Shown here: in pieces, positions 3,027 through 36,210 of the stretch
Layout: the number at the start of each line of letters is the position of its first letter
Numbering within the stretch: the first letter of the stretch is position 1
Virus record (IMG/VR): IMGVR_UViG_3300047319_001290
Coordinates: 1-36,210 of that record
DNA from: a virus
Reading direction: 5' to 3' (one strand)
DNA: 36,210 nt
The notes under the pieces: model-generated
Told to the model about the DNA's origin: nothing
The model's input: only the letters and a program-made list of their open reading frames with translations
Database searches by the model: none
Position numbers and translations under genes: made by a program

Positions 3027-3908
3027 ATGTTAGATGAAAATAACAACAACAATTCATTTACTCCCACATTTTTTATACTTCCTTTTCATATCATGTCCCT
3101 TGATGGAATCACTTTGGGTTACGCAAAAGTTTACGCCTACATTTTTGAATTCTGGAATAAAGGTCTTCACTGCTATGTCGGGATTGAAGCCATTATGAAA
3201 AGAACTGGCCTTGCAAAAACCCAAGTTTACGAAGCATTAAGTTTTTTTGAAAAAAAAGATGAGTTAAAAAGAGAGCTTATTAAAGGGAAAAAATATTTTA
3301 TAAAGCCTGAAATGCGTTTAGAACTTATAGATGACGATTCCGCTATAGCGGAAATAGCTTTTCCGGTAGAGCGGAAAAATCTTTCCGGTAGAGCGGAACA
3401 TAATATAAAGAATAGAAATAAAGAAAGTATTAATAATATTAATACTACCTCTATATCTCCTAAACAAAAAAAATTAACTCCACGTCAAAAAGATATAAAC
3501 ACAAGAGCAAAAGGAACAAATCCAAGAGTTATAGGAATAAATATTGATGAAATGCTTAAAAACAATCCGCATCAAATACCAGAGGATTTATTTGAAGAAT
3601 GGCAGGATTTTCGAAAAGCAAAAAAGAAACCAATTACCGTTCGTGTCATTAATGGCTTAAATAAAGAATTAACAAAAATTGCCTTAGGAGGAATTGAACC
3701 AATTGAAGCATTTGAAAAAATGTTAGAGAGACAATGGGATTCATTGCAATTAAGTTATTTTGAAAAAGATATTGCAGCATTAAATGTTCAAACAAAGCCT
3801 ATACCTAAAGGCAATGGAACTGAATCATTATCTAGAATGGTTGCAAAATATAGCAAACCGCAAGGGAGCGTTTACGATGAACAAGGTAATATCTATGAAC
3901 AATATTGA
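3027..3908 (+). CDS. Replication initiator (lambda O-like), contains the origin
   Basis: Likely origin-binding replication protein, 293 aa from the ATG at 3027. A TTG start at 2910 is possible but lacks a ribosome site. The N-terminal domain (about residues 12-90) has a winged-helix look: LGYAKVYAYIFEF, then YVGIEAIMKRTGLAKTQVYEALSFFEKK, as in initiators of the O/RepA type. A low-complexity linker follows, rich in Asn, Lys and Ser, encoded by the iterons and A+T-rich tract. The C-terminal domain carries LFEEWQDFRKAKKKP. It is followed with 32 bases of overlap by a P-like helicase loader, the lambda O-P arrangement. The architecture is clear; sequence identity to O itself was not tested. Confidence 0.78.
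   Translation: MLDENNNNNSFTPTFFILPFHIMSLDGITLGYAKVYAYIFEFWNKGLHCYVGIEAIMKRTGLAKTQVYEALSFFEKKDELKRELIKGKKYFIKPEMRLELIDDDSAIAEIAFPVERKNLSGRAEHNIKNRNKESINNINTTSISPKQKKLTPRQKDINTRAKGTNPRVIGINIDEMLKNNPHQIPEDLFEEWQDFRKAKKKPITVRVINGLNKELTKIALGGIEPIEAFEKMLERQWDSLQLSYFEKDIAALNVQTKPIPKGNGTESLSRMVAKYSKPQGSVYDEQGNIYEQY
3338..3446. other. Putative replication origin inside the initiator gene
   Basis: Three near-identical palindromic units sit in phase: TTCCGCTATAGCGGAA (3338-3353, perfect palindrome), then TTCCGGTAGAGCGGAA at 3361-3376 and again at 3383-3398. Starts are 23 and 22 bases apart, about two helical turns. Directly downstream is a strongly A+T-rich tract (3399-3446) ending in a perfect inverted repeat with 9-base arms (AGTATTAAT at 3426-3434, ATTAATACT at 3438-3446). 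Iterons plus an unwinding tract within the initiator gene is the layout of lambda ori within O. Confidence 0.8.
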
Positions 3909-4755
3909 TAAAAATTTTGTTGTAAGATTATTTGCAAAATTTAACGGACGATATGGTCAATTATGGACTTCAAGAGGGCGCAATGATGCGGATTGGGAGT
4001 TTATCATTGACGACTGGTTCACAGAATTATCAAAATTCTCACTATCTGTAAATCGTGATGCAATGGACGAGGTCTTAATGGTTTACAAGGATTATCCGCC
4101 TACATTACCGCAACTATTGGATTTATGTTTAAAAGCAAGTGGTGTTCCAATTGCTAGTGATTTGCTTAGAATGCTAGTAAACAAGGATTTTTCACATCCA
4201 GTGGTAAAGCTAGTTTATGACAAGATTGGCTCATGGAAACTAGCGAATGGTACTGAAAAGGAATTATCCCAGCGAGTAGCAGAACTTTACGACAATGCCA
4301 TTGTTGAATATAAAACCAATCCTGCTGTATGTTGGGAAAAGCTAGAAACTCACAAAGCGCAATTAGCACTTGAAGCACCTATCCCTGATAAAATACCCTC
4401 TAAAGCTGAAAGCAAAGCTTATCGTGATGCTATTGATGAATGTAGACGTATACTTAGCGGTGATAAGGCAAAAACCCCTATACTTGAAATACCAGAGTTT
4501 GACAAACGGAAAATCAACAAAGGTGGTGAACAATATCATGATTATTGCAAATATCTCTTGTCTGTACCTGATAATCAGGCATTGGCTTTACCTCTGAGTT
4601 ATATTTATGACCGACAAAAGTTACTAAACCTTTCTGAAACCGCAAAGCATCTACGCGAATGTGGATATATTCAAGATTCTCAGCGACCCAATGTTGAGAA
4701 ACGAACTTCAACCGGACAACCAACAAAGGTTTATAAGACGTGGATTAAGGATTAA
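3877..4755 (+). CDS. Helicase loader / replication protein (lambda P-like)
   Basis: Probable partner of the initiator that recruits the host DnaB helicase. It has 292 aa from the ATG at 3877, chosen over an upstream in-frame ATG because AAGGGAG lies 9 bases before it. The N-terminal part resembles P proteins: FAKFNGRYGQLWTSRG, ADWEFIIDDWFTELS, then YPPTLPQLLDLCLKA (the conserved P-like LP-x-LC segment, about residues 72-85). The C-terminal third is charged and looks less conserved. It overlaps the initiator by 32 bases. The ribosome site sits in the loop of a small hairpin (AAA-C-CGC / GCG-TTT, 3855-3873). The call rests on position and weak motif similarity. Confidence 0.7.
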   Translation: MNKVISMNNIDKNFVVRLFAKFNGRYGQLWTSRGRNDADWEFIIDDWFTELSKFSLSVNRDAMDEVLMVYKDYPPTLPQLLDLCLKASGVPIASDLLRMLVNKDFSHPVVKLVYDKIGSWKLANGTEKELSQRVAELYDNAIVEYKTNPAVCWEKLETHKAQLALEAPIPDKIPSKAESKAYRDAIDECRRILSGDKAKTPILEIPEFDKRKINKGGEQYHDYCKYLLSVPDNQALALPLSYIYDRQKLLNLSETAKHLRECGYIQDSQRPNVEKRTSTGQPTKVYKTWIKD

Positions 4756-35157: not shown

Positions 35158-35574
35158 ATGCCACGCTTCAGATTATTAAAATCAGGCGACATACCTGAGG
35201 AATCTATCCATAAAACCGTCATGGAATGGGTTAGAAGGCATCCAATGCTAAACGGGCTGGTAATGCACTTCCCAAATGAAGGACGGCGTAGCGCGCGTTA
35301 TGGGAAGCTTTTAAAGGACTTAGGTATGCGAGCAGGTGTCGCAGACCTCCTAATTGCAATGCCTCGCCATGGTTATGGTGGTGCCTGGATAGAACTTAAA
35401 AGTTCAGGTGGCAAATTATCTGATTTCCAGAAGGATTTCTTATACGACATGCGCCAACAGAATTATTATGTGTCTGTCTGTTGGTCGGTTGATGAAGCAA
35501 TAAAGGTCATATCCTGGTATTGTTTTGAAAATCAGAATGGTATTGCGTCATCATCGAATGTATCATCATTTTGA
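35158..35574 (+). CDS. VRR-NUC domain nuclease (138 aa)
   Basis: Compact PD-(D/E)XK-type nuclease found alone in many phages. Key elements: HFPNEGRRSARYGKLLKDLG, AGVADLLIAMP with D63, WIELKSSGGKLSDFQ with E79 and K81, and Q91. Stand-alone VRR-NUC proteins cut branched or junction DNA and could resolve concatemers before packaging. No ribosome site, so coupled to the fibre gene. The last 43 bases overlap the 3' end of the ssb gene on the other strand. Confidence 0.88.
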   Translation: MPRFRLLKSGDIPEESIHKTVMEWVRRHPMLNGLVMHFPNEGRRSARYGKLLKDLGMRAGVADLLIAMPRHGYGGAWIELKSSGGKLSDFQKDFLYDMRQQNYYVSVCWSVDEAIKVISWYCFENQNGIASSSNVSSF

Positions 35575-35942
35575 ACCGGAATGGTTATGCCTTCGGTAGT
35601 TGGGGCATTTGAAGCTTTCTTGCCAGACGGGATGAATTTTAAATCATGTGCTAAAATAGAATAAGAATACTGGCCTGCGCGTTCTCCTGTTTCCATTTTC
35701 TTATGTTGTATTTCTCCTTGCACATGCAGTTTATCGCCAACATGTACATATTTTTTAGCAATATCTGACATTTTATTAAAACAAATCACATTATGCCAGG
35801 TGGTAACATCTTTTGTAGCTCCATTTGTGTCTTTGTAGTTCTTATTAGTGGCTATCGATAATATTGTTAGTTCTCTACCATTTTTAAGAGACTTTGATTC
35901 TTTGCTTCCTACATTTCCTAATATTATTGCTATGTTAATCAT
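35532..35942 (-). CDS. ssb: Single-stranded DNA-binding protein
   Basis: OB-fold protein of 136 aa. MINIAIILGNVGSKESKSLK, then TNKNYKDTNGATKDVTTWHN and VICFNKMSDIAKKYVHVGDK LHVQGEIQHKKME follow the bacterial SSB core. The disordered linker ends in the acidic tip DDDAIPF, which docks partner replication and repair proteins. AAGGA lies before the start. Last gene of the leftward recombination operon, where it would protect DNA opened by the exonuclease. Confidence 0.94.
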   Translation of the reverse strand: MINIAIILGNVGSKESKSLKNGRELTILSIATNKNYKDTNGATKDVTTWHNVICFNKMSDIAKKYVHVGDKLHVQGEIQHKKMETGERAGQYSYSILAHDLKFIPSGKKASNAPTTEGITIPVQNDDTFDDDAIPF

Positions 35943-36080: not shown

Positions 36081-36210
36081 TATACTTTTTCCAATTGCGT
36101 TATGAATGCTTGCGCTTCAACATCCGTGAGTTCTTCTATTGCGTCGATTTTATAATAATCCATAGCTTTATACATTCTATCTTTGCTAAAATCTTTTTCT
36201 ATGAATAGTT
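36080..36210 (-). CDS. recT: RecT C-terminal end (same gene as at 1-1001)
   Basis: Encodes the last residues of RecT (ending ITQLEKV) and its stop at 36080-36082. Bases 36084-36210 repeat bases 1-127, so this is not a second gene but the part of recT cut by linearising the circle. Confidence 0.9.
   Translation of the reverse strand, partial: LFIEKDFSKDRMYKAMDYYKIDAIEELTDVEAQAFITQLEKV
36084..36210. repeat. Terminal direct repeat (right copy)
   Basis: Identical to bases 1-127. See the left copy. Confidence 0.95.

Follow-up and report, generated by a model that had tools for sequence, protein, structure and literature searches.

The window (the whole stretch of viral DNA analysed, 36,210 bases) very probably carries the theta-replication origin of its phage inside the initiator gene, in an arrangement of the lambda O/P/ori-lambda type. 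Supporting this are dyad iterons about two helical turns apart, an A-rich tract directly 3' of them, their position in the linker-coding part of the gene and an overlapping P-like gene. The sequence-only reading had proposed a lambda-type origin embedded in an otherwise unrelated initiator gene; the origin was upheld by this anatomy and by the layout of 13 relatives, but the initiator turned out to be O-like (PHROG 678). With good confidence, this locates the origin of an uncultured phage.

The initiator gene (3027-3908, + strand, 293 aa) was read from a start codon at 3027, chosen from relatives; the frame could also begin further upstream, at a TTG at 2910. Its product matched PHROG 678 'replication initiation O-like' (2.2e-20), as did lambda O over an overlapping part of the profile (1.7e-35), and scored 20.1 bits against HTH_36 (PF13730, cut-off 25), relatives L046 and L047 scoring 23.6 and 22.8 bits. 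The window initiator gave no hit to Phage_rep_O (PF04492), for which relative L048 reached only E 0.12, and neither a RepA_N (PF06970) hit nor a plasmid match by tblastn. AlphaFold2 predicted a winged helix (residues 16-93), a disordered linker (residues 96-168, low-complexity, pLDDT below 50) and a helical domain (residues 173-255). The HTH_36-like N-terminal domain (residues ~16-93; 3072-3305, +), predicted to bind the origin and found in the 13 relatives, was modelled with helices at residues 30-44, 53-60 and 64-76 and a two-strand wing at 81-92 (block pLDDT mostly 65-88). Its predicted recognition helix (residues 64-76, KTQVYEAL...) is encoded at 3216-3254 (+). Foldseek on the model gave weak generic winged-helix hits only; the top one (E 0.17, not significant) was 4pql, whose title reads 'N-Terminal domain of DNA binding protein' and which we take to be a RepA N-domain. 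No solved lambda O structure was found in the sequence search.

The C-terminal domain (residues ~169-256; 3531-3794, +), the proposed loader contact, is common to the O proteins of the Pseudomonas phage Ab31/FBPa42 type (pairwise 6e-14, tblastn 4e-6) and is also present in the O protein of Pseudoalteromonas phage Y3. These proteins have N-domains of the lambda-O type (FBPa42 3e-10; Ab31 5e-18 and Y3 1e-17 against lambda), a type with which the window-type N-domain aligns only weakly by profile (hhalign 54%, E 1.3e-4, over 57 columns). With a C-domain shared with such O proteins, the initiator is best described as a mosaic member of the O-like group, not as an unrelated gene. In the linker, the O genes of Ab31 and Y3 each bear a dyad array of their own (GTGCCGAAAACGGCAC; TTACCCGAAAAGGGGTAA-type).

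Three dyad repeats of 16 bp each lie on the + strand at 3338-3353 (iteron 1), 3361-3376 (iteron 2) and 3383-3398 (iteron 3), exactly where they had been noted from the letters and with the same start spacing of 23 and 22. Iteron 1 (TTCCGCTATAGCGGAA) is a perfect palindrome (16/16) and departs from the other two at just the two positions named earlier. Iterons 2 and 3 (TTCCGGTAGAGCGGAA each) are mutually identical, with an identity that extends over 17 bases, and are 12/16 palindromic; iteron 3 is the one that adjoins the A+T tract. The claim that iterons and tract fall within the linker-coding part of the initiator agrees with the AlphaFold2 boundaries given above. Iterons 1 and 3 share one reading frame and iteron 2 uses another, the peptides across the three being DSAIAE, FPVERK and LSGRAE; iterons 2 and 3 are the same DNA read in different frames, which places the repetition in the DNA and not in the peptide. 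The array occurs once in the record, and no second tight array of dyad repeats was found elsewhere in its 36,210 bp. Dinucleotide shuffling of the entire window, done 60 times, never gave a trio of such sites, and the observed combined repeat-plus-dyad score was reached by none of 20,000 synonymous recodings of the initiator gene (weighted by phage codon usage). Because iterons 2 and 3 lie in two frames and no recoding reached the score, selection acts on the DNA of the array itself. There were no DnaA boxes near the window's origin; perfect DnaA boxes (TGTGGATAA) were seen in L047 (position 3142) and L052 (position 4285) only, inside or just before the iteron arrays.

The A+T-rich tract, the proposed DNA unwinding element, extends from 3399 to 3478 (+) with 17.5% G+C (37.5% record-wide), a content as low as this being found in 0.5% of all 80-bp windows of the record. 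Purines prevail on the coding strand over its first 31 bases and make up 69% of its first 45 nt (likewise 69% in lambda), and its start (CATAATATAAAGAA...) often recurs in the N-domain relatives. The tract contains an inverted repeat (3426-3446) made of AGTATTAATA at 3426-3435 and TATTAATACT at 3437-3446, with perfect arms and a 1-base centre; its presence had been noted correctly, while the arms measure 10 bases and not the 9 given. By chance, such a repeat appeared in ~0.0025 (about 0.25%) of tract shuffles. It was rejected as a conserved origin element and left out of the core parts because the relatives' tracts hold nothing comparable (arms of 4-6 at most). GC skew, suggested earlier as a check on an origin at the iterons, was likewise rejected as a locator: the cumulative minima (2088 raw, 5837 detrended) are both confounded by gene direction and do not pinpoint the site. 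The record has a direct terminal repeat of 127 bases (1-127 and 36084-36210); this exact length may be the word length of the assembly, left where a circular map was closed, and not a biological end.

A P-like helicase loader gene (3877-4755, +, from ATG 3877 or ATG 3895) overlaps the end of the initiator gene. Its product matched PHROG 109 'P-like helicase loader' at a modest 9.4e-5 and had no significant Pfam hit; in L048, the gene that follows the initiator relative matched PF06992 at 1.3e-18. A RecE-like exonuclease gene (1001-1837, -) lies in the neighbourhood, and, should the genome circularise, an SSB gene (35532-35942, -) would adjoin over the terminal repeat. Relatives of the loader were found in L005-L011, full-length in L006-L011 (36-53% identical). 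The last ~25 residues of the initiator carry a tail, Y-D/E-Q-x-G-x-x-Y-D/E, that is common to the window and L006-L010, although the C-domains are unlike. The tail was found where an initiator precedes this P-like gene, not clearly in L011, and it could be a loader-docking tail, as its coding sequence runs into the start of the loader gene.

Searches with the whole initiator gave no close relatives, and a strict search for the iteron pair pattern gave none either; the family was reached by searching with the loader protein and with a more permissive dyad pattern, followed by profile scans. The 13 N-domain relatives (L045-L048, L050-L052, L099, L100, L102, L107, L108 and L109) are 40-52% identical to the window (alignment A7) and come from uncultured viruses, except L108 (a Legionella londiniensis remnant) and L109 (a MAG contig). 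In a Legionellales-wide search for the N-domain, one other genome was found beyond the L. londiniensis remnant, with a marginal score (E 9e-4). Comparison of iterons and N-domains across relatives, another check proposed beforehand, showed two or three dyads in every one of the 13, at an equivalent linker position and with a spacing of 21-23 for the last two (L050 and L107 have two recognisable dyads only), the repeat sequence changes with the N-domain, and an A-rich tract lies 3' of the array in 13/13. The C-domain, compared pairwise in seven relatives (L045-L048 and L050-L052), did not match the window's in six (L045, L046, L047, L050, L051 and L052), and these six still keep the array. With dyads kept in all N-domain relatives while 6/7 C-domains are unmatched, N-domain and repeats evidently move together and the rest is exchanged.

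The initiators upstream of the loader relatives (read in L006 and L008-L011) have N-domains that do not match the window's. Their linker repeats, some weakly resolved, are GTGACGTTAC-type in L006, CCA-n5-TGG in L009, 15-bp repeats in L010 and CGTCCA-n5-TGGACG in L011, and the L008 linker had no clear repeat array. By this comparison the loader lineage pairs with several N-domains. In L108 (NZ_LNYK01000016.1, ~4440-4490) the initiator gene of the prophage remnant ends at a palindrome, AAGTCTGATTATCACAATAATCAGACTT, which is absent from the window. The linker of L006 contains AAGTCTGATTATCACAATAATCAAACC, closely similar to this palindrome, which may be a site of integration or recombination. Pairs of TTCCG-n6-CGGAA dyads were also seen within the reading frames of other HTH initiator-like ORFs (L013, L016, L020, L029, L030, L031, L033 and L042), and their presence in such unrelated-looking ORFs suggests that in-gene origins are common among uncultured phages.

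Next to the conserved layout, the dyads vary in sequence (TTCCG, GTCCG, GTCTA, GGCCG, GGGCG and TGCAC in the series). The half-site, which covers -8 to -3 in each dyad of 16 bp, was compared with residues 64-71 in 14 sequences. TTCCGC accompanies KTQVYEAL in the window, VSQIYEAF in L046 and KTAVYDAL in L051, and TTCCGA accompanies KSTIYESL in L052. GTCCGC is found with RTQIYDAL (L047) and NSQVCEAL (L048), GGCCGC with ITQIKEAL (L045), GGGCGC with LRQVKQAL (L102), GGGACC with ERHIKKAL (L107) and ATGCAC with IRQVQYAI (L050). GTCTAC is paired with RAIIYRAL in L099 and with RAVIYKAL in L100, L108 and L109. In this series K at residue 68 is accompanied by G at -7, and T at -7 is seen when residue 68 is Y, C or Q; C at -5 accompanies D or E at residue 69, and T at -5 accompanies K or R there when it stands beside Y68. 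Columns 64, 65, 66, 68 and 69, which co-vary with the half-site, rank 8, 3, 7, 4 and 6 of 57 variable columns after removal of overall identity, and the six-residue window that tracks the half-site best in the whole domain begins at 65. At the level of sequence, the repeat changes with the N-domain and most strongly with the predicted recognition helix. The helix/half-site statistic was reached by 0 of 3000 label shuffles, in a test devised after seeing the table of 14 sequences. Since the test is post hoc and each trait shows only about two independent switches on the tree, so few that a strict independent-pairs test cannot reach significance, contacts between helix residues and half-site bases are a strong lead, not proof. 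A bolder proposal, for which our belief falls a little short of even, is that these domains form an undescribed origin-binding family, mostly of uncultured phages, in which a few recognition-helix residues and the half-site, tied to each other within one gene, have repeatedly switched specificity by a readable code. If true, L047 (GTCCG) and L109 (GTCTA), with N-domains 78% identical, would represent a natural one-step specificity switch.

The array could instead consist of operators by which the initiator represses or times its own transcription, with the origin elsewhere, and we consider this improbable. Dyads bound by a winged-helix protein would fit, and the SPP1 initiator has a second, distant origin (PMC6316719); however, the sites lie ~310 bp inside the gene and not at a promoter, their surroundings have no excess of promoter-like hits over shuffles, the A-rich tract is 3' of the array in every relative and the genome has no other such array. 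There is an even slimmer chance that the repeats act in RNA, as mRNA hairpins of an attenuator, a terminator or an antisense RNA loader. Each dyad could fold as a hairpin of 5-6 bp that would survive in the relatives, where both arms change symmetrically (TTCCG/CGGAA, GTCCG/CGGAC, GTCTA/TAGAC), and two dyads looked terminator-like in a simple scan, no more than expected. Yet the arms are of 5-6 pairs only and the central bases can vary freely, the coding frame stays open through all three dyads, their spacing is near two turns of DNA, and their sequence shifts with the recognition helix of the protein. Least credible of all, the notion that the repeats are a by-product of a repeated linker peptide or of low-complexity chance has the low-complexity linker in its favour and is refuted by identical 17-mers that encode different peptides in different frames, as well as by the recodings and shuffles (0/20,000 and 0/60).

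For the lambda-type origin that we favour, a sequence of events can be proposed. A dimer of the N-terminal winged helix would bind each 16-bp dyad, and three such dimers, about two helical turns apart, would build a nucleoprotein complex. By analogy with lambda, this complex would strain and open the A+T tract from 3399 onward. The C-terminal domain would then pass the site to the P-like loader (3877/3895-4755), which would bring in the host replicative helicase. Because the origin sits inside the gene of its own reader, initiator and sites would be inherited or exchanged as one module.

In lambda, an O dimer occupies each iteron, the adjacent AT tract unwinds and the origin lies inside O (PMC6022878, PMC7466680). 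The window resembles the lambda O/ori-lambda/P region in the origin in the initiator linker, the overlapping loader gene that follows, the purine-biased A+T tract directly 3' of the iterons and a spacing of about two turns (20, 24 and 23 in lambda; 23 and 22 in the window). It differs in having three iterons of 16 bp instead of four of 18 bp, of unrelated sequence, an N-domain without detectable Phage_rep_O (PF04492) and a C-domain that is not lambda's. Phages P22 and L each have an initiator with its own iterons inside its own gene (PMC8022706). As in the window, the iterons are within the initiator gene in P22/L gene 18 and in the O genes of mEpX1, Ab31 and Y3; unlike in the window, the N-domains of these initiators are of the lambda-O family, the half-sites are GTGCCG, TTACCCG, TGTCTC and TTACCGA, and several have other loaders or helicases. 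An identical 30-mer, AAACCCCCTATATCCCCCAAAAAAGTTTCT, was observed just 3' of the unwinding tract in L048 (same contig as L074) and in enteric mEpX1-like O genes (L056, L063 and others), whose N-domains and iterons are unlike and whose C-domains have no pairwise match. The corresponding position holds ACCCCCTTACCCCC, in a different frame, in P22 and mEp213, and ACCTCTATATCTCCT in the window (3447-3461); the shared 30-mer could be either a third element of the origin or a joint left by recombination.

Outside this group, SPP1 has oriL inside gene 38, with repeats and an A+T tract, and a phage helicase loader, gp39 (PMC6316719). The window shares with it the repeats and A+T tract in the initiator gene and the phage loader, whereas SPP1 is a Bacillus phage with a second origin, oriR, elsewhere and its repeats are described as direct. 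In plasmid pSK41 the Rep boxes are within rep, and in pPR9 an HTH (PF13730) N-domain and the origin form a functional block of ~500 bp that differs from pSK41 (PMC5703833). The pPR9 Rep and the pSK41 RepA_N protein are like the window in their N-terminal winged-helix/HTH domain and in an origin inside rep, and unlike it in belonging to Gram-positive plasmids that have no P-like loader, the pSK41 C-domain binding DnaG. The principle of an in-gene origin with initiator-specific iterons is already established by lambda, P22, L, SPP1, the RepA_N plasmids and pPR9. What the window and its relatives would add is an undescribed N-domain family with graded origin specificities, and the 14-member series offers a basis for swaps that address how initiator-origin specificity changes without loss of function.
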